Shown: in pieces, positions 1,358-27,928 of the stretch | Position numbering within the stretch: the first letter of the stretch is position 1 | How the letters are laid out: the number at the start of each line of letters is the position of its first letter | From: Trujillonella endophytica | GTDB taxonomy: Bacteria; Actinomycetota; Actinomycetes; Mycobacteriales; Geodermatophilaceae | Direction of reading: 5' to 3' | Length of the DNA stretch: 64,000 bases | NCBI RefSeq assembly: GCF_900110555.1 | Contig: NZ_FOEE01000002.1 | Span: 186,001 to 250,000, forward strand | The notes under the pieces: model-generated | Seen by the model: only the letters and a program-made list of their open reading frames with translations | Databases searched by the model: none | Told to the model about the DNA's origin: nothing | Position numbers and translations under genes: made by a program

Positions 1358-1371
1358 TTAGCGCTGGCTAG
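1358..1371. promoter_or_regulatory. Regulon operator, site 1
   Basis: TTAGCGCTGGCTAG, two mismatches from the consensus CTAGCGNTCGCTAG. It lies 89 bases upstream of the SnoaL-like gene starting at 1269 and downstream of the SDR gene ending at 1455, so it most likely controls the SnoaL/aldehyde dehydrogenase pair. Confidence 0.6.
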
Positions 1372-1454
1372 CATAGCCATCATCGGTGACCTGCGCTACA
1401 CCGTGGCCGCGCGAAGGCGTTCACCCCACGTCGTCGTAGAGGGCCTACTGCGGC

Positions 1455-2297
1455 CTACTTGATGGCCGCCCCCAGGTCGACCGGCAGAGCGACCCCGGTG
1501 ATGTACCGACCCTCGTCCGAGGCCAGGAAGAGCACGGCGTTGCTGATGTCGACCGCCTCCACATAGGGAAGTGGCCAGAGGTGCATCCCTGCCATGGCCA
1601 CCTCGGCGTCCGCCTGCGTGGGGTTCTCCAGGTCCGGGCGGAAGACGCGGTACAACTCGTCGTGCAGCAGCATCGGGGTCGGCACGTTGGTCGGATGGAC
1701 GCTGTTCACCCGGATCCGATGCCGGGCGAGCTGCGTGGCGTAGCCACGCATCATCCCGACGACGCCGTGCTTGGCCTCGACGTAACCCGCCGGACCGCCG
1801 AGGGTCCGCAGGGCGGCGAGCGAACTGGTGATGATGATGGACCCACCCTCACCGGTGTCGATGACGGCCCGCTTGGTCGCCTCGATCGTCCGGAAGACGC
1901 CGGACAGGTTGACCGCGACGACCTCGTCGAACCGCCGCACACGGAGCTCGGGGTCCCGGGAACCGTCCAGTCGGCCGCTGATCCCCGCGTTGGCGCAGAC
2001 GATGTCGAGCCGGCCGAACTGGTCGACCCCCTCGCTCACCGCTGCCTGCAGCTGCCCCAGGTCGCGGACGTCCGCCTTGCGGGCCACGATCCTGCGGTCG
2101 AGGGCCTCCACCGAGCGCACGGTCTCCCGGAGGTCCTCCTCCGTGGCGAGCGGATACGGCACGCCGTCGATCGGCTCGCAGATGTCGACGGCGACGATGT
2201 CGGCGCCCTCCTGAGCCAGCCGGATGGCGTGGCTACGCCCCTGGCCCCGGGCGGCGCCGGTGATGAAGGCGACCTTCCCCTCCACACGTCCGGCCAT
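1455..2297 (-). CDS. Mycofactocin-coupled SDR family oxidoreductase
   Basis: Short-chain dehydrogenase of the actinobacterial mycofactocin-coupled subfamily, 280 residues. The diagnostic opening is GRVEGKVAFITGAARGQGRSHA (nucleotide site TGAARGQG), then a longer-than-normal insertion after the ADIVAVDIC strand containing L.ETVRSVEALDRR and a KADVRD motif; the catalytic set is Ser in TSSLAA and YVEAK. Members are thought to hold NAD tightly and pass electrons to mycofactocin rather than to free NAD. The ATG at 2297 follows GAGGAG by six bases, a better start than the upstream ATG at 2318. It is the last gene of the seven-gene operon beginning at 7008, with homologues at 8154 and 24319. Confidence 0.9.
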   Translation of the reverse strand: MAGRVEGKVAFITGAARGQGRSHAIRLAQEGADIVAVDICEPIDGVPYPLATEEDLRETVRSVEALDRRIVARKADVRDLGQLQAAVSEGVDQFGRLDIVCANAGISGRLDGSRDPELRVRRFDEVVAVNLSGVFRTIEATKRAVIDTGEGGSIIITSSLAALRTLGGPAGYVEAKHGVVGMMRGYATQLARHRIRVNSVHPTNVPTPMLLHDELYRVFRPDLENPTQADAEVAMAGMHLWPLPYVEAVDISNAVLFLASDEGRYITGVALPVDLGAAIK

Positions 2298-2407
2298 GGC
2301 CACTCCTCTCGTAGACACGCGGGTCGGTCACCCGGCACCGGCTCGGTGCGGGACCGGACGACGTCCGGCCGGCTGACCGCCGCCGGCGGACGGCTGGTTC
2401 CGCAGGC

Positions 2408-3160
2408 TCAGGCCGACAGGCCGCCGTCGATCGACAGCGTCGCCCCGGTGATGTACGCCGCCGCCGAGCTGGCCAGGAAGGTGACGAGAGCGCTCATCTC
2501 GCTGAGATCGCCGAAGCGGCGCAGCGGGATCGCCGCGCTGATCTTGGCCTTCGCCGCTTCGCGCATGTTGTGCGCCATGTCCGTGCTCATCATCCCTGAT
2601 TCGATGATGTTGACGGTGATCCTGCGCGGAGCGAGATCATGTGCCGCGCCACGGGTGTAGCCCGCGACGGCGGCCTTGCTGCCGCAGTAGTCCGCCGCCC
2701 CCGCCGAACTCGCGCGAGTGCCGCTCAGCGATCCGATCGTGATGATGCGCCCGTCGTCGGACATGACATGCGCCGCCGCCCGGATGCTCGCGATCACGCC
2801 CATGGTGTTGATCGCCCACATCCGGTCGAGCGCGGCATAGTCATCGCCGTCGCCCAGGCGTTGCGTGACGGCCACGCCGGCATTGTTGATCAGGATGTCC
2901 AACCGACCGAAGTCGTCCATGACGGCAGCCACGAGAGGCTTCGCCGCAGCCGGATCGCCCTGATCGGACCGGTAGGCCTTGGCGCGCGCGCCCTGCCGTT
3001 CGACCTCGTCGGCCACGGCGTGCGCCTCGGCTGCGGACGAGTGATACGTGAATGCCACGTCTGCGCCGTGTTCGGCCAGCGCGAGGACCAGCGCTCGGCC
3101 GATGCCGCGCGACCCGCCCGTCACGAGGGCGCACTTGCCTTCCAGTTCGCGCTCGTTCAT
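2408..3160 (-). CDS. SDR family oxidoreductase (FabG-like)
   Basis: Classical short-chain dehydrogenase/reductase of 250 residues with TGGSRGIG for the cofactor, NNAGVA, Ser in GSLSG and the YCGSK catalytic pair; the C-terminal TGATLSIDGG is the usual end of FabG-like proteins. It would interconvert a hydroxyl and a keto group using NAD(P). Unlike its neighbour at 1455 it lacks the insertion of mycofactocin-coupled enzymes. It sits between the flavin monooxygenase (3247) and that SDR in the same operon, 86 bases from the former. Substrate cannot be read from the sequence. Confidence 0.9.
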   Translation of the reverse strand: MNERELEGKCALVTGGSRGIGRALVLALAEHGADVAFTYHSSAAEAHAVADEVERQGARAKAYRSDQGDPAAAKPLVAAVMDDFGRLDILINNAGVAVTQRLGDGDDYAALDRMWAINTMGVIASIRAAAHVMSDDGRIITIGSLSGTRASSAGAADYCGSKAAVAGYTRGAAHDLAPRRITVNIIESGMMSTDMAHNMREAAKAKISAAIPLRRFGDLSEMSALVTFLASSAAAYITGATLSIDGGLSA

Positions 3161-3246
3161 CTTCCAGACCTTCTCTAGGAGCGTCGGCCGATCCGTGAGG
3201 GCAATGGGCCTCTGGCCGAGAGATGACCGACCCTCGGTCGAGCGGC

Positions 3247-4260: not shown

Positions 4261-4321
4261 GGACGACTCCTCGAGGTAGTGGAGGCCGATCCTGCGAGGA
4301 GCGGCTGGGCGATGTACCCGG

Positions 4322-4846: not shown

Positions 4847-4926
4847 ACTCGTCCCTTCCGTCACAACGGATCGGTCTCCGTGCTGACCGGCAGGCCGCCA
4901 CCCGCCGCTCAGGGCACTCAGGGCAC

Positions 4927-5364: not shown

Positions 5365-5456
5365 CACGCTCTCCTCTGATCGCTGTCGGATGATCGCCGC
5401 CGCTCTCGGGCGAACTCGAGCTCCGGTCCGCCGAGCCCCTCCCCCGGGGCTGATCG

Positions 5457-5846: not shown

Positions 5847-5850
5847 GCCG

Positions 5851-7008
5851 TCACTCCGCGTTCGCGAGGATGAGAGTCGAGTGGTCGTCGAACGTGCCGC
5901 CGTTGCCACTGACCAGAGCGAGATCGTGGCGGGACACCTGTCGCTCGCCGGCCTGGCCGCGGACCTGCATCACGGCCTCGGACAGCGACGTCATCCCCCA
6001 CATGTAGTACCCCGACAGCTGCCCTCCACCGGTGTTGATCGGCAACCGGCCTCCCGGGCTCGCGGCCCCGGAGCGGAAGAACTCGCCACCCTCACCCTTC
6101 GCGCAGAAGCCGTAGTCCTCGGCGCTCACCAGGGTCGTGAACGTGAAGCAGTCGTAGAGCTCGGCGAACGCGATGTCCTCGGCGGTGACACCGGCCATCT
6201 CGTACGCCTGCCTGCCTGACTCCACGGCGCCGGTCGTCAGGCCGAACCTGCTCCGGCCGTCCATCGGGTAGTCGGGGTGCGACTGCCCCATGCCCGTGAT
6301 CGTGACGAGCGGCTGGGCGAGGTCCCGCGCCCGGTCGGCCGACGTGACGATGACGGCAACGGCTCCGTTGGAGACCAGGCAGCAGTCGAACAGCCGGAAC
6401 GGCTCGGCGATCATGCGCGCCTGCTGGTGGTCGTCGACCGTCAGCGGCTTGCGCATCTGCGCATGCGGGTTCATCACCGCCCACGACCGCGCGGACACCG
6501 CCACCTCGGCGAAGTCCAGGCTCGTCGTCCCGTAGACGGTCATGTGCCGGCGAGCGGCCATGGCGTACCCGGCCACGGCTCCCCGCAGCCCGACCGCGAC
6601 CGGGAGGGCGCCGAGACCCGACAGCTGATCGGCCTTTCCCGCGTACCTCGCACCGGTCGCGACTCCCTCGCTGAGCGGGTCGTCGGCGAAGACGCACGCC
6701 ACCGTGGTGGCCATGCCGGCGGCGATCGCGAGACAGGCCGTCTGCACCATGACGCCCGCCGAGGATCCGAAGGACTGCACGTCGGCTGCCAGTCGAAGGT
6801 CACGCAGTCCCAGCCGCTTGGACAGCCGGAGGTTGACCCCCTTCATCGCACCGGCGTTCACGAGCAGGCCATCGAGGTCGGAGAGGGCGAGCCCGGCGTC
6901 CTCGCACGCACTGGTCACGGCCTCGTCGGCGAAGTCCTCGGCCGACCTCCCGTAGACCTTGCCCATGGCCGTCATCCCCAGGCCGGCGATCGCACCGAAC
7001 GCGCTCAT
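5851..7008 (-). CDS. Thiolase-fold protein without the nucleophilic Cys (Ltp2/SCP-x-like)
   Basis: A 385-residue thiolase superfamily protein of the SCP-x/lipid-transfer group. The loop that normally carries the acyl-accepting Cys (CASG) reads SSAG here, with Ser near residue 82, so classical thiolysis is unlikely. Ltp2-type steroid side-chain aldolases share this loss and the motif FTFTTLVSAEDYGFCAKGEGG is very like theirs, as is SGNGG near the end. A retro-aldol cleavage of a beta-hydroxyacyl-CoA is therefore the best guess. Start taken at ATG 7008 by alignment with family N-termini; the frame is open to 7059. First gene of a seven-gene operon behind the palindromic site at 7168. Confidence 0.85.
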   Translation of the reverse strand: MSAFGAIAGLGMTAMGKVYGRSAEDFADEAVTSACEDAGLALSDLDGLLVNAGAMKGVNLRLSKRLGLRDLRLAADVQSFGSSAGVMVQTACLAIAAGMATTVACVFADDPLSEGVATGARYAGKADQLSGLGALPVAVGLRGAVAGYAMAARRHMTVYGTTSLDFAEVAVSARSWAVMNPHAQMRKPLTVDDHQQARMIAEPFRLFDCCLVSNGAVAVIVTSADRARDLAQPLVTITGMGQSHPDYPMDGRSRFGLTTGAVESGRQAYEMAGVTAEDIAFAELYDCFTFTTLVSAEDYGFCAKGEGGEFFRSGAASPGGRLPINTGGGQLSGYYMWGMTSLSEAVMQVRGQAGERQVSRHDLALVSGNGGTFDDHSTLILANAE

Positions 7009-7167
7009 CCGGCGCAGCCCTTCACCATCGTGGACACCGCTCAGCCCCTCTCGCAGCACGACGACCCGAGCAGCTCCGCACGTCTCGTCGCGCGAGCACT
7101 CACCTGTCCTGGACCGCCTCCGAGGCGATCACCCGACCGTAATGAGTAACGTAGGTCACCGCAATAG

Positions 7168-7192
7168 CGTACGATCGCTAGTCGTCGGTCAA
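7168..7192. promoter_or_regulatory. Regulon operator site 2 with divergent promoter
   Basis: CGTACGATCGCTAG at 7168-7181, part of the dyad TAGCG-N6-CGCTA (7165-7180). It lies between the leftward thiolase operon and the rightward crotonase gene. On the minus strand TTGACC (7187-7192) and GCTATT (7163-7168) form a sigma-70-like pair with an 18-base spacer that contains the dyad. Confidence 0.6.
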
Positions 7193-7252: not shown

Positions 7253-8068
7253 TTGAACCCTCAGACGGAGTCCGACGTCGAGCCGGTGCTGATCGAAGAG
7301 CGTCGGGGAGGCAACGTGATCCTCACGTTGAACCGGCCCCGGGCGCTCAACGCCATGAACGCGGCACTCTCGGGCGCGCTCGGCGCCGCCCTCGAGCGAG
7401 CTGCACACGATCCGGGGGTCCGGGTGGTCATCGTCACGGGCGCGGGAGACCGAGCGTTCTGCGCCGGCGTCGACCTCAAGGCCGCGGCACGTGGGGAGTC
7501 GACCCACGCGTCGCAGGAGGAGTTCGACAAGTGGCATTTCGGTGGCTTCGTCAAGCACGTGATCAGCAAGCCGATCATCGCGGCGGTCAACGGGTTCGCG
7601 CTCGGCGGAGGCACGGAGATGGCCCTGGCCAGCGACCTCGTGGTGGCCGCCGACTCGGCCACGTTCGGGCTGCCTGAGGTCACGCGGGGACTCATGGCCG
7701 GGGCCGGAGGCGCGTTCCGCCTGCCGCAGCACCTCCCCAGGAAGATCGCCATGGAGCTGCTCTTCACCGGTGATGCGCTCAGCGCGCAGCGGGCCCTCGA
7801 ACTGGGCCTGGTCAACCGCGTGGTGCCCCGCGAGCAGCTGATCGATGCCGCGGTCGAGCTCGGCGATCGCATCGCCCTGAACTCCCCGCTGGCGGTCCAG
7901 GCGACGAAGCGGCTCGCCATGGGCATCGACGGCGACGAGATTCCGACGGACGCGGCGAGCTGGGAGCGATCCGCGCGCGAGTTCGCGGAGCTCCGCAAGA
8001 CCGAGGACTACCGCGAGGGGCCCCGCGCCTTCGCCGAGAAGCGCCGGCCCGAGTGGAAGGGCCGCTAG
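7253..8068 (+). CDS. Enoyl-CoA hydratase/isomerase (crotonase family)
   Basis: A 271-residue crotonase that hydrates or isomerises an enoyl-CoA. The oxyanion-hole stretch AFCAGVDLKA and NGFALGGGTEMALASDL are present, and both general acid/base glutamates of true hydratases are kept (Glu in GGGTE and in GLPEVTRG, followed by AGAGGAFRLP). The TTG at 7253 is the likely start because AAAGGA stands seven bases before it; no ATG fits. The gene is transcribed away from the thiolase operon from a shared operator region and ends against the SDR gene at 8154 with a hairpin between. Confidence 0.9.
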   Translation: MNPQTESDVEPVLIEERRGGNVILTLNRPRALNAMNAALSGALGAALERAAHDPGVRVVIVTGAGDRAFCAGVDLKAAARGESTHASQEEFDKWHFGGFVKHVISKPIIAAVNGFALGGGTEMALASDLVVAADSATFGLPEVTRGLMAGAGGAFRLPQHLPRKIAMELLFTGDALSAQRALELGLVNRVVPREQLIDAAVELGDRIALNSPLAVQATKRLAMGIDGDEIPTDAASWERSAREFAELRKTEDYREGPRAFAEKRRPEWKGR

Positions 8069-9213: not shown

Positions 9214-10323
9214 CTAGGCGGTCGTGCTGGCGACGGGCGTCGACGCCGCGACCTGACGCGCGGCCTGCGCGGCCCTGCGCACGGCACGACGCTCCTGGAC
9301 CCGCTTGACCATCAGCACCGCTCCGACAGCAACGATCAGCGCGATGCCGTTGAACAGGGCCGTGACCCAGATCGGCGCGCCCAACAGCTGCAGGCCGGCA
9401 ACACCGGTTCCCAGCAGGAGGATGGCGATCAGCGTCCCTCCCACGTTGAACCGACCCGGCTTGAGCTGGGTCGTGCCGAGGAAGACGGCTGCGAAGGCGG
9501 GCAGCAGGTACTCCGGCCCGATGGACTCGCTCACCGAACCCAGGGTCGAGGCGAGCAGCACGCCTGCCGCGGACGCGACGACGGCCGAGGTGACGAGCGA
9601 GAAGAAGACCAGCCGCTTCGTCGCCACACCCGACAGGTGGGCGGCTTCCGGATTCGCGCCCGTCGCGTAGATGCGGCGGCCCAGCGGGGAGTGCTCGATC
9701 ACGTACCAGGCGAGCAGAGCCAGAACGGCTACGTAGAGCACGATGATGGGCAGCGTGAAGACCTTCTGGTCCGTGATGGCCAGGAAGGAGTCGTCCAGGG
9801 GACCGATGAACGCCCCCTCGGCGAGGATCTGCGATCCCGCCAGCAACAGCGACGTGGTGCCCAGGGTCGCGATGAAGCTGTCGATGCCGATGACCGCCAC
9901 GAGGAAGCCGTTGAACGCCCCGATCACGCCACCGACGACGAGAGTGACGAGAATCGCCAGCGGTACCGGCAGGTCCTGCTTCGTGAGCAGGACACCGCAC
10001 AAGACCGCACTGAACCCGAGGTTCTGGGCAGCGGACAGGTCGAAGGCCCCTGCGGCGAGCGGGAAGAGCAGGCCGATCGCCAACACGGCCACGATTGCCT
10101 GCGTGGCGAGGATGGACCGCGCATTCGCCAATGTCAGGAACGTCTCCGGCCGCAGGAGCCCGAAGACGATGATCAGCGCGGCGAGGATCAGCAGTCCGCT
10201 GAACTTGTTCAGCTGCGCCCCGGCGAGCAGACGTGCCACGCCCGTCGGCCGGCGCGGAGACGTCGCAGCGTCGTCCTGGAGAGTCTCCCTGGCCGGCGCT
10301 TCCTGTGTTTCCAAGCTAGACAT
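9214..10323 (-). CDS. Sugar-type ABC transporter permease
   Basis: A 369-residue inner-membrane permease of the ribose/xylose family (RbsC-like), with a polar N-terminal tail of about 40 residues and then roughly eight to ten hydrophobic segments. The conserved ANPEAAHLSGV loop after the IYATGANPEAA motif, which contacts the ATPase, is clear. It starts at ATG 10323, eight bases inside the 3' end of the ATPase gene, so the two are translationally coupled. Together with the lipoprotein encoded at 12369 it should form an importer. Members of this family also import non-sugar substrates in catabolic clusters, so the ligand need not be a sugar. Confidence 0.9.
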   Translation of the reverse strand: MSSLETQEAPARETLQDDAATSPRRPTGVARLLAGAQLNKFSGLLILAALIIVFGLLRPETFLTLANARSILATQAIVAVLAIGLLFPLAAGAFDLSAAQNLGFSAVLCGVLLTKQDLPVPLAILVTLVVGGVIGAFNGFLVAVIGIDSFIATLGTTSLLLAGSQILAEGAFIGPLDDSFLAITDQKVFTLPIIVLYVAVLALLAWYVIEHSPLGRRIYATGANPEAAHLSGVATKRLVFFSLVTSAVVASAAGVLLASTLGSVSESIGPEYLLPAFAAVFLGTTQLKPGRFNVGGTLIAILLLGTGVAGLQLLGAPIWVTALFNGIALIVAVGAVLMVKRVQERRAVRRAAQAARQVAASTPVASTTA

Positions 10324-11851
10324 GGAGGCTGTCCTTACTGCGAGAACGGGAGATGGATTCCCCGAGGAGACGATCGGTCGTAGCCTCGGCGCGCGGCACG
10401 GAGGCACCCAGGACGCCGTCCCGGAGGACCAGGACGCGATCACACATCGACGCGGCTTCGTCGAAGTCCGACGTCATGAGGAGGATGGCGGAACCGCCGG
10501 CAGCGGCCTGGAGGATCGCGTCGTAGATCGCGCGCTTGGCCCCCACGTCGACACCGGCCGTCGGCTCTTCGAGCAGAAACACGTGCGCACCGCTGCGCAT
10601 CCACCGGGCGATGACCACCTTCTGCTGATTGCCGCCGCTCAGGGACGCCAGGCGCATCTCGGGATCCCTCGGGTGCACGCCGTACTTGGCGACATAGGGC
10701 GCCACGTCGCGCCCCTCGGCACGGCGGGACATCCACCTGAGCCGGCCCAGGCCCTTGAGCCGCGGCAGCGTGATGTTTTCGCGAACCGACCACTCCCCCA
10801 GCACCGCCAACCGCTTCCGCTCACCAGGGCTGAAGGCGATCCCGGCTCTGATGGAGGCGGCAGGGGCATCCGGCGGGACGTCCCGGCCGTCCACCCGAAC
10901 GACGCCTGCCGCTCGGGGCCGGGAACCGAACAGGAGGTGGGGGACGTCTTCGGCACCACTGCCCATCAACCCGACGACCCCGACGATCTCGCCGGCCCGG
11001 ACGGAGAGGGACAGGTCCTTGACGTTGCCACCGGCGAGGTGCTCGGCCTGCAACACCGCCACACCCGCCGACTCCTCGTGATCGGGATAGAGGGCTTCCA
11101 ACTTCCTCCCGAGGATCAGCTCGATGAGGGAGTCGTGGTCCAGTCCCGCCAGCGGACGGGTGGCGACGACACTCCCGTTCCGGAGGATCGTCACCCGGTC
11201 ACCAAGCTCGAACACCTCCTGGAGGAGGTGGGTGACGTAGAGGATGGTCTGCCCGCGGGCCTGCACCTCGCGGAGCAGCGTGAAGAGGAGTTGCTTGTCC
11301 GCCTCGGCGAGCGCCGCCGTCGGCTCGTCCAGGACGAGGATCGCGTCCTTCGCCGGGCCGAAGTGCAGGGCGCGGACGACTGCCACCAACGTGCGCGCCG
11401 CCAGGCTCAGTTCCCCGATCGTGGCCGCCGCATCCACCTTCACCCCGTACGAGTCCAGGATCGCCTGCGAGTGGCGGACGTGCTGTCTGTCCGACAGCCA
11501 GAAGCGCCCCGGGAAGGAGCCACCCAACGACATGTTGTCGGCGACCGAGAGACTGTCGATCATCCCGAGGTCCTGGTGGATGAACCGCAGTCCACTCTTC
11601 TCGGCCATGTGCGGCCCCACCTCGACCTCGGTACCGAAGACCGAGGCCTCGGAGCCGGGGTCCGGGGTGTGGTAGCCGGCGAGGATCTTGATGAGAGTGG
11701 ACTTGCCGGAGCCGTTCTGGCCCAAGAGGCAGTGGATCTCGCCGGGCTGGAGGTCCAGGGCGACCTGCCGTAGCGCCTGCTGGCCCTGGAACGTCTTCGA
11801 GAGTCCTCGGACACTCAGCGCCGCTGGTCTGTCGGCGACCGTGGTCGACAT
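10316..11851 (-). CDS. Sugar-type ABC transporter ATPase, two fused domains
   Basis: A 511-residue RbsA/XylG-like protein with two ABC domains. Domain 1 has an intact Walker A (GQNGSGKST) and Walker B (ILVLDEPTAAL) but its signature is LSLAA instead of LSGGQ. Domain 2 has a degenerate Walker A (GLMGSGAED) but an intact signature (LSGGNQQK) and LLEEPTAGVD. This asymmetric pattern is normal in the family and leaves one competent composite site. The ATG at 11851 follows AGGAG by seven bases. The promoter and the palindrome at 11899 lie directly upstream. Confidence 0.92.
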   Translation of the reverse strand: MSTTVADRPAALSVRGLSKTFQGQQALRQVALDLQPGEIHCLLGQNGSGKSTLIKILAGYHTPDPGSEASVFGTEVEVGPHMAEKSGLRFIHQDLGMIDSLSVADNMSLGGSFPGRFWLSDRQHVRHSQAILDSYGVKVDAAATIGELSLAARTLVAVVRALHFGPAKDAILVLDEPTAALAEADKQLLFTLLREVQARGQTILYVTHLLQEVFELGDRVTILRNGSVVATRPLAGLDHDSLIELILGRKLEALYPDHEESAGVAVLQAEHLAGGNVKDLSLSVRAGEIVGVVGLMGSGAEDVPHLLFGSRPRAAGVVRVDGRDVPPDAPAASIRAGIAFSPGERKRLAVLGEWSVRENITLPRLKGLGRLRWMSRRAEGRDVAPYVAKYGVHPRDPEMRLASLSGGNQQKVVIARWMRSGAHVFLLEEPTAGVDVGAKRAIYDAILQAAAGGSAILLMTSDFDEAASMCDRVLVLRDGVLGASVPRAEATTDRLLGESISRSRSKDSLHV

Positions 11852-11895: not shown

Positions 11896-11924
11896 ACGCT
11901 AGCGCTCGCTAGTGGCTTTGGCAA
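11896..11924 (-). promoter_or_regulatory. Promoter with embedded regulon operator, site 3
   Basis: The palindrome CTAGCGCTCGCTAG (11899-11912) is a perfect match to the consensus. On the minus strand TTGCCA (11919-11924) and TAGCGT (11896-11901) are spaced by 17 bases, so the operator fills the spacer and overlaps the -10 box; repression by occlusion is the natural reading. The ATPase start codon is 48 bases away. Confidence 0.75.
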
Positions 11925-12368: not shown

Positions 12369-13481
12369 TCAGACGCCCCAGGCCTCCTGGAAGGCATCGG
12401 CGTAGTTCGGCGGGTCGAACCGCTCCTCCGACGCGTTCTCCTGCGTCACGAGCTGGAACGCGTTCGACGGCTCCGGGTCCGCGATGGGGTCGCCGACGGC
12501 CAGGCGAGCCATTCCGTCGACCTGCCGCCACTGGTGGGTGGTCTCACCTGCGACCACGCCGACCCACGCACCGTCCTGGATCGACTCCAGGTCCGTCGGG
12601 AACGGGAAGCCCATGACCAGCTTCACCGAGTCCGAGAGGCCGGCGGCTCGCAGGCCCTGGTCGATACCGGGGTAGAACGCGGTCCCCGCGAACGCGAGGT
12701 ACTTCGTGTCGGGGTTGGCCTTGAGGTAGTTGACGATCGCCGAGACGTTCGTCGCTGCCGGCTGGGCCAGGCTGACATCGATCCGCTCGAAGCCCGCATC
12801 GGCCTCTCCCAGACGGTCCTCCATTCCCTGGGACATGCCCACGAAGACGCCGTAGACGGGATCGAACGGCATCGCGACGTCGACGGGCTCACCTGCGTCG
12901 GCCAGGACGACGTCCGCCAGGTTCGTCCCCGCATCGATGAAGGCGTTCGGGCCGTTCACCATGAGCGCGATCCCCGGCGCGGTCTCCGCACCCGAAGCGA
13001 TGACCGGGATCCCCTCGGCCTGCGCCTGCTCGAGCTGCCTCGAGATTAGGTCCGGGCTGCCCGTGACGTTGATCGCCAGATAGTCCGGCTTGGAGGCGAG
13101 CGCCGCATCGACGGCACGCAGATAGTCCGGCGTGCCCTTGGTGATGTCGTAGTCGAAGCTCTCGAGCGTCCAGCCGAGGGCCTCGACCGGCTCCTGCATC
13201 GCGCCGGGCGTGCACTGCGGGATCGTGCAGTTCACCTGCGCCACCACCTTGCCCGGCGGGACCGGACCCGAGAGCGGCTCGACCGTGAAGTCCTCGGGGT
13301 TCGCGAGTGTTTCGACGTTGGCGGTCGCCTCATCGATGACCGCGTTGCCCTCGGACGACGAATTCCCGGACGAGGAATCCCCGGACGACTCGTCGTCGTC
13401 GGAACCACAGGCGGTGCCCAGCAAGGCGACGGTCATCGTGCACGCGATGACCGCGAGCCCGCGTCGGGTCGGCTTCAACAT
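12369..13481 (-). CDS. ABC transporter substrate-binding lipoprotein
   Basis: A 370-residue extracytoplasmic binding protein of the periplasmic-binding-protein (sugar-type) family. It has a basic start (MLKPTRRG), a hydrophobic signal and a lipobox ending LLGTAC, then an acidic/Ser-rich linker; Cys after GTA would carry the lipid anchor. Segments such as PDYLAINVTGSPDLI, GIPVIASGAE and LKANPDTKYLAFAG are the alternating strands of the two-lobe fold. It is the ligand-binding component for the ATPase/permease pair downstream, from which it is separated by a terminator and a remnant of a paralogue. ATG 13481 has GGAG eight bases upstream. Confidence 0.9.
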   Translation of the reverse strand: MLKPTRRGLAVIACTMTVALLGTACGSDDDESSGDSSSGNSSSEGNAVIDEATANVETLANPEDFTVEPLSGPVPPGKVVAQVNCTIPQCTPGAMQEPVEALGWTLESFDYDITKGTPDYLRAVDAALASKPDYLAINVTGSPDLISRQLEQAQAEGIPVIASGAETAPGIALMVNGPNAFIDAGTNLADVVLADAGEPVDVAMPFDPVYGVFVGMSQGMEDRLGEADAGFERIDVSLAQPAATNVSAIVNYLKANPDTKYLAFAGTAFYPGIDQGLRAAGLSDSVKLVMGFPFPTDLESIQDGAWVGVVAGETTHQWRQVDGMARLAVGDPIADPEPSNAFQLVTQENASEERFDPPNYADAFQEAWGV

Positions 13482-13534: not shown

Positions 13535-13569
13535 CTAGCGTTCGATAGGGATGCGAGGCAAGTAACAAC
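13535..13569 (-). promoter_or_regulatory. Promoter with embedded regulon operator, site 4
   Basis: CTAGCGTTCGATAG at 13535-13548. Read on the minus strand, TTGCCT is followed after 18 bases by TAGCGT, the same geometry as at 11896, with the palindrome against the -10 box. The binding-protein start is 54 bases downstream. Confidence 0.7.
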
Positions 13570-14195: not shown

Positions 14196-15101
14196 TCAGG
14201 CGCCGGCGGCCACCACTCGCGCCGCCCACTCGGCGACCGACTGCAGGGCGTCGTCGGCCTCCGGGAGGTTCCCGGCGAACAACTGGAACACGTGCGGGAC
14301 GACGTCGAACTCCTGATAGGTGACGTCGACGCCGGCTTCCTCCGCACGAGAGGCGATGAGCCTGGCGTCACCGACGAGGACCTCTGCTGCACTGGCCTGG
14401 ATGATCAGCGGCGGGAGCCCCGCGAGCGCCCCCGCGAACGCCGGCGACACCCGCGGGTTCTCGTAGTCGCCGGTCGGGACGTAGTTCTGCCGGAGCGGGA
14501 CCATCATGGGGTGTGAGCACATCACGTCGGTTGCCGCGTTCGTCTCGTACGTCGCCGAGGTGAGCCGGAAGTCCGCCCACGGCGACATGAAGATGCCTCC
14601 GGCGAGCCGCACCCCGTCCCGGGTCTGGTCGATCAGCGTCGTGAGCGCCAGCGCGGCGCCGCCGCTGTCGCCGCTCAGGATGATCTGCTCGGCTGGCACG
14701 CCCTGATCCAGGAGCCACCGGACTGCGGCTGCGGTGTCGTCCGCGCCAGCGGGGAACGGGTTCTCGGGCGCCAGCCGGTAGTCGAGGTTGTAGACCTTCA
14801 TCCGGCTACGGGCCGCCAGATGCGCCGCGAGTCGGGTGTGCGACTCCGGCGACCCCAGGGTCAGGCCGCCGCCGTGCAGGTGCAGGATCACGCCGCTGCC
14901 GACCTGCTCGGGGGTGTGGACCAGCGCCCGGCGCCCACCCATGTCGATCTCTTCGACCTTCACGTCGGTGCGCTCGGCACCAAAGGTGCCCATCGCCTCT
15001 CCGCCGGCCCGGAGACCCTCAAGGGTCGGCTCCTGATCGGTCATGGACGCCGTCCACGCCCTCAGTTCTGCGTCCAGCTTCTCTGCCGCCGCACTCGCCA
15101 T
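14196..15101 (-). CDS. Alpha/beta hydrolase, HSL-family esterase
   Basis: A 301-residue carboxylesterase of the hormone-sensitive-lipase family. The oxyanion motif HGGG (in LHLHGGGLTLG), the nucleophile GDSGG, and a C-terminal VPHVF His are all present; DYRLAPENPFPA is the usual neighbour of the oxyanion loop. It would hydrolyse a short ester or lactone, possibly one formed by the flavin monooxygenases or one carried by the growth substrate. Its own promoter region carries the palindrome at 15222. Confidence 0.9.
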   Translation of the reverse strand: MASAAAEKLDAELRAWTASMTDQEPTLEGLRAGGEAMGTFGAERTDVKVEEIDMGGRRALVHTPEQVGSGVILHLHGGGLTLGSPESHTRLAAHLAARSRMKVYNLDYRLAPENPFPAGADDTAAAVRWLLDQGVPAEQIILSGDSGGAALALTTLIDQTRDGVRLAGGIFMSPWADFRLTSATYETNAATDVMCSHPMMVPLRQNYVPTGDYENPRVSPAFAGALAGLPPLIIQASAAEVLVGDARLIASRAEEAGVDVTYQEFDVVPHVFQLFAGNLPEADDALQSVAEWAARVVAAGA

Positions 15102-15221
15102 CTCTGACTCTCCTCTTCACCGTCGGGACTGGCCCCGGGAGGCGCCCCCAGTCGTCACAAACCGGACAGCGGACACGCCCTGATGATCGGTCCGCCGTCA
15201 TGCCGACTGGCTACCCGATAT

Positions 15222-15235
15222 CGAGCGAGCGCTAG
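15222..15235. promoter_or_regulatory. Regulon operator, site 5
   Basis: CGAGCGAGCGCTAG, i.e. CTAGCGCTCGCTCG on the other strand, one base from the perfect form. It is 121 bases upstream of the esterase starting at 15101. Confidence 0.6.
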
Positions 15236-17612: not shown

Positions 17613-17939
17613 TCACTGGCTCTCGGGGATGTGCAGCACGATCCCGTCCGTCTCAGCGGTGCACGGGATCTGGCAGCTCAGCCGGCTGAACTCGGTGGGC
17701 TCCTCGGAGGTGGCCTCGAGCATGTCCCGCTCGTCGACACCGGGTGCGTCCAGCCGGTCGAACCACTCCGGATCGACGAACACGTGGCACGTGGCACAGG
17801 ACAGGTCGCCGCCGCACTCCCCGATGATGCCGCCCACCAGGTTGTCGGTGGCCGCATGCATCGCGGACGTACCGACCAGCACCTCCACCTCGGTCCGGTT
17901 CGCGCCGTTGACGAAGACGACCTTCGACTTATCGCTCAC
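17613..17939 (-). CDS. 2Fe-2S ferredoxin (adrenodoxin/putidaredoxin type)
   Basis: A 108-residue ferredoxin with the vertebrate-type ligand pattern C-x5-C-x2-C...C: Cys42, Cys48, Cys51 and Cys89 (in LSCQI). The short FVNGANRTEVEV opening and CATCHVFVDPEW are standard. GTG at 17939 is chosen as start; GGGAAG precedes it. It carries electrons from the reductase at 16310 to one or both P450s encoded just upstream. Confidence 0.92.
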   Translation of the reverse strand: MSDKSKVVFVNGANRTEVEVLVGTSAMHAATDNLVGGIIGECGGDLSCATCHVFVDPEWFDRLDAPGVDERDMLEATSEEPTEFSRLSCQIPCTAETDGIVLHIPESQ

Positions 17940-18025
17940 TATTTCTTCCCAGGGTGATCGTGCGGACTGGACGGATGTCCGGCCAGTTGGTGGTCGGTGG
18001 TCGGCGGTCGCCGACCACCGAGGGG

Positions 18026-20971: not shown

Positions 20972-20985
20972 CTAACGCTCGATAG
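20972..20985. promoter_or_regulatory. Regulon operator, site 6
   Basis: CTAACGCTCGATAG, upstream of the leftward P450 operon (start at 20775, 187 bases away). A second copy stands 145 bases further right for the divergent gene. Confidence 0.65.
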
Positions 20986-21200: not shown

Positions 21201-23213
21201 GTGGTCGAGACGGTGCGCTTCAACTGCGAGCTCTGTATGGCCATGTGCGGCATGATCGCGACCGTCGAGGACGGTCGACTCGTGGACGTCAAGGGCGATC
21301 GTGACCACCCGACGTCAGCCGGCTACACGTGCGCCAAGGGTCGTGCGCTGCCCGAGCGACACCACGGGGACGGGCGACTGGACTTCCCACGACTGCGTGG
21401 CGAGCGGGTCAGCTGGGACACCCTCCTCGACGACGCCACCGGGGAGATCCAGAGGCTCATCGCCGAGGGTGGACCGAACAGTGTCGCGGGCTACTACGCG
21501 ACCGGTCAGGCCTTCAGCGGCGGCGCCTACCCCATGCTCGACCTCTTGGCCCAGCTGGGATCGAACCAGGTGTACTCCCCCATGACCCTGGACGTCGCCC
21601 CGAGGCTCCGCGCCGCCGAACTGGTCACCGGCATCCCCTTCCTGCACCCGAGCTGGTTCCCGGAGGAGGGACCCACGCTGTGCGTGATGCTCGGCACCAA
21701 CCCGACCACCTCGGGCGGTTGGATCGGGTCCGCCCGCGCCAACATGCCGCAGCGACTCCGTGGCTTCCGGGCACGCGGCGGCGAGCTGTGGGTGGTGGAT
21801 CCGCGACGGTCGTCCTCCGCGAAGCGGGCCGATCGCCACCTCGCCCCGCGCCCCGGCACCGACCACTTCCTGCTGGCCTGGCTCGCGCGCGAACTCCTCG
21901 ACAAGGGACACGACGCGCACGAGGTCGCCTCGGCGTGCGACCCGGCCGATGTCGAGCGTCTGCGCGCCGCCGTGGCGCCCTTCACCCTCGAGGTGGTCGC
22001 GGAACGGACCGACCTCGCGGCCGACGACCTCATCGAGCTCCTGGCGGCGATCAGGCGGCACGGCAAGGTCGTCCTCCTGGGCGGCACCTGCCTCGGGTTC
22101 CAGCCCGAGGGTGTCGTGGCCGAGTGGCTCGCGCTGGCAGTCATGATCATCACGGGGTCGCTCGACGTCGAGGGCGGGCTGAAGTACCTCTCCGCCGGCC
22201 ACGGGATGATCGACGGGCCGGCCTTCGCCTACCACGCGCCCGAGGACGGCAGCGCCTCCCCGGGGCCGGCCAGCCGTCCCGACCTCGACGGCCTGCTGGG
22301 ACAGTTCCCCGCTGTGACGCTGCCGGACGAGATCGAATCCGGACAGGTTCGGGCGCTCCTCGTCTTCGGGGGCAACCCGTTGACCTCGGTTCCCGATCCG
22401 GACAGGATGCGCGCCGCCCTGGCGAAGCTGGACGTGCTGGTGGTCATCGACCCCTTCGACGTCGAGATCACGAAGATGGCCACCCATGCCATGCCGTGCG
22501 CGTGGGTGACCGAACGGACCAGTTTCATCCACGAGCCCCTGCAGGGCCTCGACCGCTCGTACCTAAGCCCCCCCGTCGTTCCGCCCGGCGGGGAGCGGCA
22601 GCAGTCCTGGTGGATCATCGCGCAGCTGGCACGCCGACTCGGGAAGGACGTTCTCGACGGACTGGACCCGGACACCTCCGACGACGACACGGTGGTCCGG
22701 CATCTCGCCCGGGCGCGCGCGGACTTCGCCGAGGAGGTGTTCGCGGGAGGTTCCCACGGCGCTGCCGTCCCGACGGGGATCGGCTGGGTGCACGAGAAGA
22801 TGCTGCCCGGTGGGCGTTGGCGCCTGGCGCCGCGCGTGCTCCTCGACCGCCTGACGGCCGCGCTCGACCAGGAGAGCGGCGGCCTGCGGCTCGTCGCGGG
22901 CCGGCGGATGAACAGCCTCAACAGCAGGGTCTACGCCCTTGAGGACGGGACGCCGCCCATCGTGATCAGCGCCGCGGCCGCGCGTGACCACGCGATCAGC
23001 AACGGGGACCGGGTGCGGGTCAGCACGGCCTCCGGTGCTGTCGAGGGCCTCGTCGAGGTCGATGCCGCCCTCGGTGATGCAGCCGTCTACATCAACCACG
23101 GCTGGCTGGAGCAGAACGTGAACCGGATCATCGACCGGATGCCCGACCGGTTGACGCTGCAGCCGGTCTTCACGGGCATCTCCGTGCAGCTCGAACGCGT
23201 CGACGCCCAGTAG
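21201..23213 (+). CDS. Molybdopterin-dependent oxidoreductase (DMSO reductase family)
   Basis: A 670-residue catalytic subunit with a 4Fe-4S motif at the N-terminus (CELCMAMC then GYTCAKG), the FGGNPLTS and TERTSFIHEP stretches typical of molybdopterin guanine dinucleotide enzymes, and a C-terminal dinucleotide-binding barrel (RRMNSLNSRVYAL, NGDRVRVSTASGAVEG). No twin-arginine signal is present, so it should be cytoplasmic. There is no adjacent small Fe-S or membrane subunit; the electron partner is unknown. The GTG start has a purine-rich AAAAGGTGGGG upstream. Divergent from the P450 operon and sharing its operator type, it probably acts in the same pathway, for example on a hydroxylation or a reductive step. 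Confidence 0.88.
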   Translation: MVETVRFNCELCMAMCGMIATVEDGRLVDVKGDRDHPTSAGYTCAKGRALPERHHGDGRLDFPRLRGERVSWDTLLDDATGEIQRLIAEGGPNSVAGYYATGQAFSGGAYPMLDLLAQLGSNQVYSPMTLDVAPRLRAAELVTGIPFLHPSWFPEEGPTLCVMLGTNPTTSGGWIGSARANMPQRLRGFRARGGELWVVDPRRSSSAKRADRHLAPRPGTDHFLLAWLARELLDKGHDAHEVASACDPADVERLRAAVAPFTLEVVAERTDLAADDLIELLAAIRRHGKVVLLGGTCLGFQPEGVVAEWLALAVMIITGSLDVEGGLKYLSAGHGMIDGPAFAYHAPEDGSASPGPASRPDLDGLLGQFPAVTLPDEIESGQVRALLVFGGNPLTSVPDPDRMRAALAKLDVLVVIDPFDVEITKMATHAMPCAWVTERTSFIHEPLQGLDRSYLSPPVVPPGGERQQSWWIIAQLARRLGKDVLDGLDPDTSDDDTVVRHLARARADFAEEVFAGGSHGAAVPTGIGWVHEKMLPGGRWRLAPRVLLDRLTAALDQESGGLRLVAGRRMNSLNSRVYALEDGTPPIVISAAAARDHAISNGDRVRVSTASGAVEGLVEVDAALGDAAVYINHGWLEQNVNRIIDRMPDRLTLQPVFTGISVQLERVDAQ

Positions 23214-23260
23214 GGGCCCCTCCCCCGGACCAACCGATGCTTGCCCGGGCACGACGGCCG

Positions 23261-24318: not shown

Positions 24319-25155
24319 TCAGGTGACGTTGGCACCCGCGGCGACGGGGAAAGTGACGCCGGTGATGTACCGCGCCTCATCGGAGGCGAGGTAGAGCAAC
24401 GCATTGCTGACGTCGATGGCCTCCACCCACGGCAGGTCGAGAGCATGTGCGAGCTTGGACGGCTCGGCCATGTCCTCCTGGGTCGGGTTCTCCAGGTCGG
24501 GGCGGAAGTTCCGATACATGGCCTCGTTGTGGATCATCGGAGTGGCGACCTGCGTCGGCAGCAGGGAGTTCACCCGGATGTTGTACTTCCCCAGCTCCAC
24601 GGCCATGGTCGCCATGAGGCCGACCACGCCGTGCTTGGCCGCGCTGTAGTGGCCGATGAACTGGTAGGTGCGCAGGGCGGCCATGGAACTCGTCAGCGCG
24701 ATGGATCCGCCCCGGCCACCTTCGATCATGTGCGGGATGGCCGCCTTGCAGGTGCGCCACTGGCCGGTCAGGTTGATGTCGACCATGTCCTGCCACTCCT
24801 CGTCCGGGATCTCCCAGGACGGGAACTGGTTGACGCCGATGGCCGCGTTGGCGGAGACGATGTCCAGCCGTCCCAGCTGCGCCACGCCGTCGTCCACAGC
24901 GGCCTTGAGCCCGGCGGAGTCCCGGATGTCGACCTTGTGCGTGACGATCCGCCGATCCAGCTGCTCCACCAGGCGCGCCGTCTCCGCCAGGTCGGCCTCG
25001 GTGGGGAAGTCGTAGTTCACGTTGCGCACGGGTTCGCAGATGTCGATGGCGATGATGTCCGCGCCCTCCTCTGCCAGTCGCACCGCGTGCGAGCGACCCT
25101 GGCCGCGAGCCGCGCCGGTGATGAATGCGACCTTGCCTTCAACACGTCCGGGCAT
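24319..25155 (-). CDS. Mycofactocin-coupled SDR family oxidoreductase
   Basis: Third member of the subfamily, 278 residues, beginning GRVEGKVAFITGAARGQGRSHA with the long insertion (CEPVRNVNYDFPTEADLAET) and catalytic Ser in TSSMAA plus YSAAK. It is closer to the gene at 1455 than to that at 8154 (shared CEP, YRNFRPDLENPTQ segment), pointing to a duplication inside the cluster. Single-gene unit with the palindrome at 25364 upstream. It probably oxidises an alcohol intermediate with electrons passing to mycofactocin. Confidence 0.9.
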   Translation of the reverse strand: MPGRVEGKVAFITGAARGQGRSHAVRLAEEGADIIAIDICEPVRNVNYDFPTEADLAETARLVEQLDRRIVTHKVDIRDSAGLKAAVDDGVAQLGRLDIVSANAAIGVNQFPSWEIPDEEWQDMVDINLTGQWRTCKAAIPHMIEGGRGGSIALTSSMAALRTYQFIGHYSAAKHGVVGLMATMAVELGKYNIRVNSLLPTQVATPMIHNEAMYRNFRPDLENPTQEDMAEPSKLAHALDLPWVEAIDVSNALLYLASDEARYITGVTFPVAAGANVT

Positions 25156-25363
25156 GGATGTCTCCAGTCGTTGAGGGATGGCCGGAGTCAGCTTGCGAAC
25201 ACCCGGTGGGGACGCTCGGGAACTGACTGCCTGCCTCGTTGATGTGTGACTGCACGTACGGCTACTCGTTGATCAGGAGGGGCCGACACCTGGCGACGGA
25301 GGTCTCCCCGCCGCGGTCGAAGATCACCGTTCCGACGCGACAGAGCCGGTCCACTCACGTTGT

Positions 25364-25377
25364 CGAACGATCGCTAG
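25364..25377. promoter_or_regulatory. Regulon operator, site 8
   Basis: CGAACGATCGCTAG. The right half is perfect and the left half is degenerate. It stands 209 bases upstream of the SDR gene starting at 25155 with no other promoter-facing gene nearby. Confidence 0.55.
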
Positions 25378-25787
25378 GGGGATGTTAGCCCGCTCACAGC
25401 CACCGTCGTCAAGGGGATGAGCTGCGCCCTCGTACGCGGCCCCGACCTGCGACGAGTCCGCCGAGCCGATGCCGAACAAGGCGGCGCAACATGCGGATGC
25501 AGGGCCGTCGACAGCGCGAGGACGTCGGGGCCGCAGACTCCCCCGCCGTCCCCGTCCACCCGTTCCGCGCCTGCGGCCGACAGAGTGAGCCCGGGCGCAG
25601 GTCGGTCGACTGGCTGCGCCCGCGGGCCTGGGCGTCACCGCAGTCAAGGGGTGGCGCAGGCCCCAGGTCCCGGAGCTGGCTCCCGAGGATGGAGATGCCC
25701 CGGAGCCGGGTGCCGGTCCGACCCAGGAAGGGATCACGCGCCGTGGCGGATACGGGCATGGCCCCGCCGACCGTCCGGGACAACCGA
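25378..25787. other. Intergenic stretch without a recognisable gene
   Basis: 410 bases; a 124-codon open frame exists on the minus strand but it has an Arg/Gly/Ser-rich composition typical of a non-coding frame and no ribosome site. Confidence 0.55.
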
Positions 25788-26237
25788 CTACGGCGCCACG
25801 TACCCCGCCTCGGCGATCATCTCGGCGACGATCTCCGGAGACTTGTAGAAGTTGTCCTGCTCGACACACAGTCCGTCGTCGAATCGGTAGATCTCGACCA
25901 CGTTCATCGTGGCCCGCCGACCGGACTTCCTGTTGACGAAGGTGGCCCCCAGGAAGCGCTGCACGACCAGGTCGTCGCCGAACAGTTGCGTCTCGACCTT
26001 CTCCACGTGGAGCTCGAAGTTCGCCGCCAGGCCGTCGATGATGCTCTTCATCCCGGCTGGGCCGTTCTTGGTCCCGCCGTATTGCAGAACGGGCGGATGG
26101 CTGATGACGCAGTCCGGATGGATGTAGTCGTACTGCTCCTCCGACCACTGCATCTGGGGGTCGACGAAACGCTGCCGAGCGTCTCCGGTCATCCTGTCTT
26201 CCCACTCGCTCTGCCGGTGTTCGAGTTGGTGGAACAT
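25788..26237 (-). CDS. SnoaL-like / NTF2-fold protein
   Basis: A 149-residue polyketide-cyclase-like NTF2-fold protein: WSEEQYDYIHPDCVISHPP, GMKSIIDGLAANFELHVEKVE and a final VEIYRFDDGLCVEQDNFY strand. It is the third SnoaL-like gene of the region. The start is either ATG 26237 or ATG 26192; neither has a strong ribosome site. It ends the operon with the CMD and 3-hydroxyisobutyrate-dehydrogenase-like genes. Function unassigned. Confidence 0.75.
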   Translation of the reverse strand: MFHQLEHRQSEWEDRMTGDARQRFVDPQMQWSEEQYDYIHPDCVISHPPVLQYGGTKNGPAGMKSIIDGLAANFELHVEKVETQLFGDDLVVQRFLGATFVNRKSGRRATMNVVEIYRFDDGLCVEQDNFYKSPEIVAEMIAEAGYVAP

Positions 26238-26324
26238 GAATGTGGTGACGAGGTTGTGCCGGAGAACCGGAGCCCGCGCCGGCGCCCAGCGGCCGTCGAG
26301 GAGGGGACGCCGACTCTCCAGGGC

Positions 26325-26738
26325 TCAAGGCGTGCCGTTGCCGCCCTCATGGACGGAGACGGTGGGCTCGAGTCCGTCGGCGCCGACGACCTCGCGCCAC
26401 GCCTCGACGCCGCCCTGGAAGGCGACGACCCCGGCCTCCGGCAGGGAGATCTCGATGGCCTCGAGGATCTCCTGGGAGGAGACGCCGAGGTCGAGCGCGA
26501 CGCGGATGTGGCTCTGGATGTGACTCTTCGGGGCCCGCATCACCGTGAGACTGACGATGAAGATCAGCTCCTTGGTCGTGCGGTCCAGCGTGCGCTGCTC
26601 GAGGTACGCGGCGGAGACCATGCCGTTGGCCGCCTGCAGGACGGCGAAGTCGTGCTTGGCCATCACCTTGTGGTAGTCGAGGACGTAGCCCCGACTGTGC
26701 GCCATGTCGTCGATGTACTGCTGCGGGTCGGTGCTCAC
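26325..26738 (-). CDS. Carboxymuconolactone decarboxylase family protein
   Basis: A 137-residue all-helical CMD/AhpD-fold protein. The core RTKELIFI-like helix (LDRTTKELIFIVSLTVMRA) followed by SHIQSHIRVALDLGVSSQEILEAIEISLPEAG is the family hallmark. The CxxC pair of peroxidase-type AhpD proteins is absent, so it belongs to the decarboxylase/hydrolase-like branch. It lies 40 bases after the dehydrogenase gene and 87 before a SnoaL-like gene, all in one operon. Confidence 0.85.
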   Translation of the reverse strand: MSTDPQQYIDDMAHSRGYVLDYHKVMAKHDFAVLQAANGMVSAAYLEQRTLDRTTKELIFIVSLTVMRAPKSHIQSHIRVALDLGVSSQEILEAIEISLPEAGVVAFQGGVEAWREVVGADGLEPTVSVHEGGNGTP

Positions 26739-26778
26739 ACGTCTCTCCCGATCGTCGATCTGTCGTGGCGGTCTGGGG

Positions 26779-27675
26779 TCAGGCGCCTGTCGCGCGGAAC
26801 GACACCTGGTTGATGTACTCGTAGTAGCGGGCGAGCTCGGTGTGGTCGAGGTCGTCCCGGGCGAGGGTCGCGCGGGCGTTCCCGGCCGCCTCGGCTGCGG
26901 CGTCCGTCACCGGGGTCTGCAGACCCTCTCCTCGGGCCAGCGACTGTGCGATGGCGACGTCCTTGAGCATCAGGTCCATCGCGAAGCCCGAGTCGTAGCA
27001 GCCGGTCACGACGTACTTCGGGTACTTGACCTCGGTGGCCTGCGAACGCCCCGTCGAGGCGTTGAGCACGGCGACCATCACGCCGGGATCGATGCCGAAG
27101 GAGCTGGCTACCGCCAGCACCTCCGCCGCGGCCGCGATGTTCGTCGCCGAAAGCAGGTTGTTCAGAGCCTTGGCGGCATGGCCGGCGCCGGAGGGGCCGA
27201 CGTCCAGGATCGTGGCCCCCATGGGCGCGAGGTGCGGACGGGCGCGGCTGGCGTCGGCCACCTCCCCGCCGACCATGATCGACAGCTGGCCGGTGACTGC
27301 CTTGGCGACCCCGCCGGAGACCGGCGCGTCGACGTAGCCGATGCCGCGCTCCCGCGCCGCCTCGGCCAGACGCCGGGTGCTGGTCGGCTCCGAGGACCCC
27401 ATGTCGATCACGAGTGCTCCGCCGGGCAGGCGATCGAGGAGGCCATCGGCTTCGAGGACCGATTCGACGATCCGACTGTTGGGCAGCATGAGGATCACGG
27501 TGTCGACGTCGTCCGGGAGCTCGGCCAGCGAGTCGAGTGGCCGAGCAGCAATGTCATCGGCGAGCGCCCGGGCAATGGCGGTGTCGACGTCGAAGAGCAC
27601 CGTGGCGGTCGTGCCCGCATAGCGGCGCACCATGGGCGCACCCATGCGCCCCAGTCCCACGAACAGGGTGGCCAT
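26779..27675 (-). CDS. NAD(P)-dependent beta-hydroxyacid dehydrogenase
   Basis: A 298-residue member of the 3-hydroxyisobutyrate/6-phosphogluconate dehydrogenase family. The dinucleotide motif GLGRMG, substrate motif DAPVSGGVAKA and catalytic Lys in GHAAKALNN (about residue 169) are all present. It would oxidise a beta-hydroxy acid to a semialdehyde or keto acid, or the reverse. First gene of an operon with a CMD protein and a SnoaL-like protein, with the regulon palindrome at 27811 upstream. Confidence 0.9.
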   Translation of the reverse strand: MATLFVGLGRMGAPMVRRYAGTTATVLFDVDTAIARALADDIAARPLDSLAELPDDVDTVILMLPNSRIVESVLEADGLLDRLPGGALVIDMGSSEPTSTRRLAEAARERGIGYVDAPVSGGVAKAVTGQLSIMVGGEVADASRARPHLAPMGATILDVGPSGAGHAAKALNNLLSATNIAAAAEVLAVASSFGIDPGVMVAVLNASTGRSQATEVKYPKYVVTGCYDSGFAMDLMLKDVAIAQSLARGEGLQTPVTDAAAEAAGNARATLARDDLDHTELARYYEYINQVSFRATGA

Positions 27676-27810
27676 GACGAGTTCACCTTCCGACGGATCC
27701 TGAGTAGCTGTCCGGCGGCAGGCCCGGAGACATCCGTGCCAGCGGCACGTGCGGCCTCGTGTGCTCGACTCTTGCGATCAGCGGTCGTCCGAGCGTGCCG
27801 TTCCGGGGCT

Positions 27811-27824
27811 TTAGCGATCGCTAG
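27811..27824. promoter_or_regulatory. Regulon operator, site 9
   Basis: TTAGCGATCGCTAG, one base from the consensus, 136 bases upstream of the leftward dehydrogenase operon starting at 27675. Confidence 0.7.
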
Positions 27825-27898
27825 CTGCGGGCAGCGTGCAGCTCGCGGCGCGGCTCCGTCAAGCTGAGGCCCAGGCCACTCTCGGCCCGGTCGATGCC

Positions 27899-27928
27899 TT
27901 GCACACGATATCTAGCGAGCGCTAGCAT
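27899..27928 (+). promoter_or_regulatory. Promoter with embedded regulon operator, site 10
   Basis: CTAGCGAGCGCTAG (27912-27925) lies inside a good promoter: TTGCAC (27899-27904), 18-base spacer, TAGCAT (27923-27928). The layout equals that at 11896 and 13535. It should drive the riboflavin kinase-RibBA-ArsR operon starting at 28066. Confidence 0.75.

Follow-up and report, generated by a model that had tools for sequence, protein, structure and literature searches.

A recurrent palindrome on a tRNA-Asn island of Trujillonella endophytica and its probable TetR-type repressor

Introduction

Which protein recognises the short palindrome that recurs between the genes of a catabolic region of Trujillonella endophytica, and where is that protein encoded? 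The DNA in question, called the window throughout, is the 64,000-nucleotide stretch of contig NZ_FOEE01000002.1 (C20) from 186001 to 250000 (C20:186001-250000) in a 4.87-Mb draft genome; coordinates prefixed C20 are those of the contig, and all others those of the window. An earlier note, made from the sequence alone, had reported a single 14-bp palindrome at ten promoters, assigned these to one regulon of about 27 kb, and proposed a TetR-type repressor encoded outside the window. On the evidence gathered here, the palindrome is very probably the operator of a TetR-type repressor whose gene, C20:181664-182290, lies on the same tRNA-Asn island as the sites.

Results

The palindrome as a consensus

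Every one of the ten positions named in the earlier note carries the palindrome. Written as CTAGCGNTCGCTAG and scored on the best strand, it is matched without error at 11899 and 27912, with one mismatch at 13535, 15222, and 27811, with two at 1358, 20972, and 25364, and with three at 7168 and 21130. Because the mismatches range from 0 to 3, the palindrome is a recurrent consensus and not ten copies of one string; in addition, some sites have a 16-bp form. A limit of two mismatches admits 8/10 named sites, the other two having three, and yields 14 strand matches in the window where 1.33 are expected, a number reached in 0/100 shuffles. At three mismatches there are 30 matches against 20.7 expected, 8/100 shuffles reach 30, and the bulk excess is not significant; three-mismatch matching was dropped as a criterion because shuffles give almost as many matches. 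The tighter core TADCGNNCGHTA occurs at six exact places in the window (0.03 expected; maximum of 1 in 200 shuffles), and core-type sites on the island read TADCGnnCGHTA. The 16-bp form, TADCG-N6-CGHTA, in which the half-sites stand 4 bp further apart than in the 12-mer core, occurs twice, at 7165 and 15219 (0.015 expected; shuffle maximum 1); the copies placed at 7168 and 15222 are present, but each is just part of one of these 16-mers.

All 10 named sites are intergenic, as had been claimed, once the starts of two genes had been inspected by eye and set at 13481 for the binding protein and at 28066 for riboflavin kinase. The 13535 site falls between genes once the binding-protein start is set at 13481, the gene finder having placed it upstream of the site, and the 62-codon open reading frame beneath the 27912 site is a weak gene call (score 11.9). 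The candidate operators of the window and the genes that they precede are as follows.

1358-1371: candidate operator, 96 bp before the SnoaL gene 739-1269(-); next is the aldehyde dehydrogenase gene C20:185074-186552(-)
7165-7180: candidate 16-bp operator (7168 in the earlier note), flanked on one side by the thiolase/ChsH2-type operon 5851-7059(-) and on the other by the crotonase gene 7253-8068(+)
11899-11912: candidate operator over TTGCCA-N17-TAGCGT, before the ABC ATPase gene 10316-11851(-) and the permease gene 9214-10323(-)
13535-13548: candidate operator over TTGCCT-N18-TAGCGT, before the binding-protein gene 12369-13481(-)
15219-15234: candidate 16-bp operator (formerly 15222), 128 bp before the esterase gene 14196-15101(-)
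17926-17945: weak candidate operator and possible eleventh site, not an exact core, lying where the ferredoxin gene 17613-17939(-) is called to start
20972-20985: candidate operator, 204 bp before the P450 gene 19504-20775(-)
21130-21143: candidate operator, 64 bp before the molybdopterin oxidoreductase gene 21201-23213(+)
25361-25377: candidate operator of the 16-bp form (formerly 25364), 216 bp before the SDR gene 24319-25155(-)
27811-27824: candidate operator, 143 bp before the 3-hydroxyisobutyrate-dehydrogenase-like gene 26779-27675(-)
27912-27925: candidate operator over TTGCAC-N18-TAGCAT, before the riboflavin kinase gene (start 28066, +) and RibBA 28503-29771(+)

Confinement of the sites to a tRNA-Asn island

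The exact core occurs 10 times in the whole genome (backward control, 4), and all 10 occurrences lie on one island, between C20:136791 and C20:213924; for the 16-mer, four of the five in the genome are on the island (backward control, 6). The 13.9 kb of island intergenic sequence holds nine exact cores where 0.014 are expected (maximum of 1 in 1000 shuffles) and four 16-mers where 0.021 are expected; the tenth exact core falls inside the wrongly started binding-protein gene, hence the count of nine. Expectation-maximization (EM) on 62 island intergenic stretches recovered the palindrome at about 20-21 sites. It replaced a first iterated matrix, which had drifted to 109 hits, and the 20-22-letter consensus that it gave was not adopted as the core, being fitted to the island's own sequence with variable flanks. 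Twenty-three sites and one weak one were kept by hand. They are spread over 77 kb, mostly continuing to the left of the window. The earlier idea of one regulon is upheld as far as sequence can tell, but its extent of about 27 kb was too small.

The island itself, C20:128690-220009 (91.3 kb), is recognised as a tRNA insertion because of a perfect direct repeat of 39 bp, an integrase gene, and a deviating third-position guanine-plus-cytosine (GC) content. The repeat, the 3' part of tRNA-Asn, stands at C20:128690-128728 and C20:219971-220009 (100% identity), and the phage-type integrase gene, C20:128880-130022, lies beside the left attachment (att) copy (Phage_integrase 4.8e-18). The median third-position GC is 0.905 in 78 island genes versus 0.96 in 84 outside genes, with some overlap (two island genes at or above 0.96 and six outside genes below 0.94). 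In the window the island appears as two features.

1-34009: window portion of the island, with its right end at 34009
33971-34009: right att copy of the 39-bp direct repeat, 3' part of tRNA-Asn (33972-34045, -)

Against a clean island picture, seven relative loci keep the right flank, the left flank was not found in them, and none showed an empty site. The tRNA-Asn looks like a shared insertion hot spot because one of the seven, in a same-genus genome (G398, locus L065), has an integrase of its own, 46% identical, beside tRNA-Asn. The right end of the island may be older or composite, since another of them, also from the genus (G399, L064), shares with the island its last small gene (C20:219542-219763), a gene of 73 codons that is 97% identical and in the same place. 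A Pfam scan of 82 proteins, all from gene calls scoring above 50, showed no relaxase or type IV secretion gene. To the right of the island, the DnaG primase (34986-37814, -) has about 380 extra residues between its zinc ribbon (10-67) and catalytic core (449-577), with a LAGLIDADG match at 244-287; the insertion is a probable intein.

The candidate regulator

The genome has 76 TetR_N matches. The window holds none of them, in agreement with the earlier note, and one is inside the island: C20:181664-182290(+), a gene for a protein of 208 residues that ends 3.7 kb to the left of the window. Its product is most likely the missing regulator. The gene is preceded by two weak candidate sites and lies some 4 kb from the window, in the kind of place where the earlier note had suggested looking. 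The protein scores 59.2 bits with TetR_N and 86.9 bits with TetR_C_24, both above cut-off, and its predicted structure (nine helices; predicted local distance difference test, pLDDT, 82) has the N-terminal helix-turn-helix and all-helical C domain expected of the TetR family. The two candidate sites are 46 and 276 bp upstream of the gene (C20:181612 and C20:181382). The next most similar protein in the genome is only 27% identical. Among solved proteins, the best sequence relatives are 3vpr (PfmR; 3.7e-21), then 3dcf, then KstR2 (4.7e-14); the fold nearest to the model is likewise PfmR, and the list of similar folds includes the acyl-CoA-responsive AibR, KstR2 (rank 9), and FadR. Relatives on plasmids are distant, at most 37.4% among the 20 listed of 197 records. 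The clade is present in 16/394 genomes of the class (at 1e-40) and in 21/397 of the order (at 1e-35), the present genome being counted in both. Another TetR gene, C20:127927-128520, was rejected as the regulator because it lies beyond the left att copy.

Linkage of regulator and palindrome in other genera

Relatives of the island TetR were found in the reference genomes of Arthrobacter sp. B6 (59-60% identical), Nocardia aurantia (59-61%), Rhodococcoides kyotonense (50%), and Gordonia asplenii (47%); two matches of only 44 and 47 residues (L028 and L029) were left out. The exact core gathers near these genes. Eight of its 12 matches in Arthrobacter lie within 72 kb around the TetR relative, 5/11 in Gordonia within 8 kb around it, and 2/6 in Rhodococcoides within 4 kb of it, and 3/13 in Nocardia are on the same contig as it; the backward pattern gives 16, 42, 62, and 53 matches, respectively. 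After our own locus and one duplicate were removed, 44 relative loci remained, and an exact core lies within 1.6 kb of the TetR gene in 19 of these, against two for the backward pattern; in seven it is within 300 bp upstream of the gene. The core is scarce in eight genomes from the genus or family of T. endophytica, with 0-2 matches per genome and nine in total; six of the eight are listed without a TetR match at 1e-35.

In five assembled relative regions, 25/26 sites are intergenic, and several precede genes 32-70% identical to genes behind the island sites. In Nocardia a site stands 27 bp before a related thiolase gene, in Arthrobacter 32 bp before a related crotonase gene, and in Gordonia sites stand 36 bp before a related tandem CoA-transferase gene, 49 bp before a related ligase gene, and 23 bp before the TetR gene itself. 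In Arthrobacter we also observed a repeated unit, G001:C1:490249-492393 and 558214-560358, in which an operator with identical flanks and a downstream gene of the same length recur about 68 kb apart.

An independent matrix, built from 29 sites of seven other genomes only, was run over C20:66001-250000 (184 kb), of which the island makes up about half; coding sequence is 80% of the island. Its first 18 separate hits are all on the island and all intergenic, as are 24 of the first 26, and 16 forward hits reach at least 15.0 bits. The motif is thus not as common within genes or elsewhere as it is between the genes of the island, where all the exact cores also lie. The sites at 11899 and 7168 reach only 8.2 and 7.1 bits with this matrix, and the possible eleventh site (17926-17945) scores 11.7 bits, or 13.9 bits with the island matrix.

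Overlap with promoters

The TTGC-N17/18-TAGCnT promoters described at 11899, 13535, and 27912 are all exact, and the sequences bear out the view of the sites as promoter-proximal operators. Across the island and the other genomes, the operator sits in the spacer, with its last TA opening the -10 box (TTG-N16..19-TANNNT), in 6/68 oriented site-gene pairs, as compared with 0-1 at five control spacings. The six cases, with spacers of 17 or 18, are the three window sites, two in Arthrobacter, and one in Rhodococcoides. A TANNNT at the last TA of the operator, taken alone, occurs in 17/68 pairs, little above the level set by base composition. A general rule that the operator overlaps the -10 box was dropped, given the 6/68 pairs with full -35/-10 overlap.

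Genes behind the sites

Among the genes behind the island sites, those for MoaE and CofGH lie 213 and 48 bp away, respectively. Others encode riboflavin kinase/RibBA, the molybdopterin oxidoreductase, a 2-oxoacid:ferredoxin oxidoreductase, the P450, the esterase, the ABC transporter and its binding protein, pyruvate carboxylase, an acetoacetate-decarboxylase-like protein, SDRs, acyl-CoA dehydrogenases, crotonases, thiolases, and a tandem class III CoA-transferase. Their Pfam and NCBIfam names are only a loose fit to an acyl-CoA pathway of steroid or terpenoid type. The genome has two full-length CofGH (FO synthase) genes, one on the island (C20:149664-152264), with the operator 48 bp upstream, and one off it (C20:412654-415215). 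The island, which has riboflavin kinase and RibBA genes, also carries a gene for the flavin-binding protein dodecin (C20:145859-146068), and a GreA/GreB-type elongation factor gene (C20:144625-145155) lies between the molybdopterin genes and a ferredoxin gene.

Discussion

Several observations weigh against assigning the palindrome to the island TetR. The two sites upstream of its gene are weak and neither is an exact core; one 16-mer lies off the island, at C31:2964; and exact cores are missing from the neighbourhood of the TetR gene at 25 of the 44 relative loci. These loci are moreover not independent, as several come from related species and some genomes are counted twice. The backward matrix control has one hit at 17.5 bits, the next being at 13.1. 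Finally, 62/68 oriented pairs lack the full -35/-10 overlap, and two of the six that have it, both from Arthrobacter, belong to one repeated unit.

Of the other explanations, the one that survives best is that a different regulator binds the palindrome, namely the island LysR (C20:175309-176295, -), the MerR (32096-32476, +), or a chromosomal protein. Both named genes are on the island and a candidate site at C20:175296 adjoins the LysR gene, but that site is beyond the 3' end of this minus-strand gene, and LysR or MerR relatives (at 1e-20) occur in 0/5 of the relative regions, of 40-120 kb each, that hold TetR and palindromes. A chromosomal regulator should have sites off the island, where there are no exact cores. 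We judge this explanation improbable. It is more improbable still that the palindrome is no operator but serves the mobile island in another way, for instance in partition or as the target of a nucleoid protein, or that it is a short mobile repeat lodged between genes. Many copies restricted to one inserted island would fit such an element, but flanks that vary among the sites contradict a dispersed repeat, several copies overlap -35/-10 elements, and in other genera the same palindrome precedes related catabolic genes and stands beside TetR relatives; no partition gene was named in the Pfam scans of 82 proteins, no search by name having been made. Chance palindromes in GC-rich intergenic sequence can be dismissed with near certainty, since, although the bare 14-mer at three mismatches is no commoner than in shuffles, chance is refuted by the intergenic counts against expectation, the island confinement of the exact cores, and the prediction from other genomes.

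With the island TetR as the regulator, a dimer would bind at each of the 23 operators, which are spread over 77 kb and lie at or near core promoters; there it would sterically block RNA polymerase until an inducer freed the operators. Because of its kinship with PfmR, KstR2, AibR, and FadR and the acyl-CoA gene content of the island, the inducer may be an acyl-CoA intermediate of the pathway. The repressor would act on the promoters of the acyl-CoA pathway and of the linked F420, molybdopterin, and flavin genes and may also act on its own, and the island looks to be wired as one switchable unit.

In its working the predicted system resembles the KstR, KstR2, and BkaR regulons. KstR (Rv3574/MSMEG_6042) is a self-repressing TetR repressor of a 14-bp palindrome, TAGAAC-N2-GTTCTA, which partly overlaps the -10 region, and its large catabolic regulons have 16 and 31 intergenic motif instances (PMC1995591). 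The likeness lies in the class of repressor, a palindrome of equal length and spacing, the partial -10 overlap, and the large catabolic regulon; the operator letters differ, being TAGAACnnGTTCTA for KstR versus TAGCG-N2-CGCTA here, and the exact cores here are restricted to one tRNA-inserted island. KstR2 (PDB 4w97, 4w1u) responds to HIP-CoA and controls an acyl-CoA catabolic regulon (PMC6593523). It is among the best solved relatives by sequence and fold, and both regulons include ligase, acyl-CoA dehydrogenase, SDR, crotonase, and thiolase genes; the island TetR is, however, 22% identical to it over the fold match and ranks it third by sequence, after 3vpr and 3dcf. The KstR2 operator, AnCAAGnnCTTGnT, differs from the palindrome here. 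The island TetR thus appears not to be an ortholog of KstR or KstR2.

PfmR (TTHB023) of Thermus thermophilus (PDB 3vpr) has a 16-bp consensus and controls fatty-acid genes of the main genome (PMC7022988). As the best solved relative by both sequence and fold, it shares the central CG-N2-CG (probes of the CTGACCG-cT-CGGTCAG type), but it is 28% identical to the island TetR and differs in its outer operator letters, its 16-bp consensus, and its main-genome fatty-acid targets. BkaR (Rv2506/MSMEG_4718) has the core GTTA-N-T-N4-A-N-TAAC and a regulon of 10 genes in M. smegmatis (PMC3920632); it is likewise an actinobacterial TetR repressor, autoregulated, over neighbouring acyl-CoA genes, with other core letters and a far smaller regulon. 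In the open literature, six exact operator strings retrieved only an unrelated plant paper, and no paper was found there that joins a TetR regulon or operator, a catabolic genomic island, and F420.

It is unusual that a single tRNA-inserted island unites the probable regulator, the exact operators, the pathway, and the genes for its cofactors. For the further idea that the island is a self-contained mobile regulon, the chances seem to us about even: a private repressor and 23 private operators would run the pathway together with its cofactor supply (the second CofGH gene for F420, the molybdopterin genes, and riboflavin kinase/RibBA), and the 16-bp operators may hold two overlapping dimers, grading the response. 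If this is true, a new host gains a pathway and its cofactors under one substrate signal. The palindrome now leads to a testable regulator-operator pair for most of a mobile catabolic island and supplies an operator code for a TetR clade. With exact cores that are absent from the remaining host genome and yet predicted from other genera, it would be a clean case of horizontally moved regulation, and the operator set, by picking out the genes of the pathway, cofactor genes included, narrows the search for the substrate.

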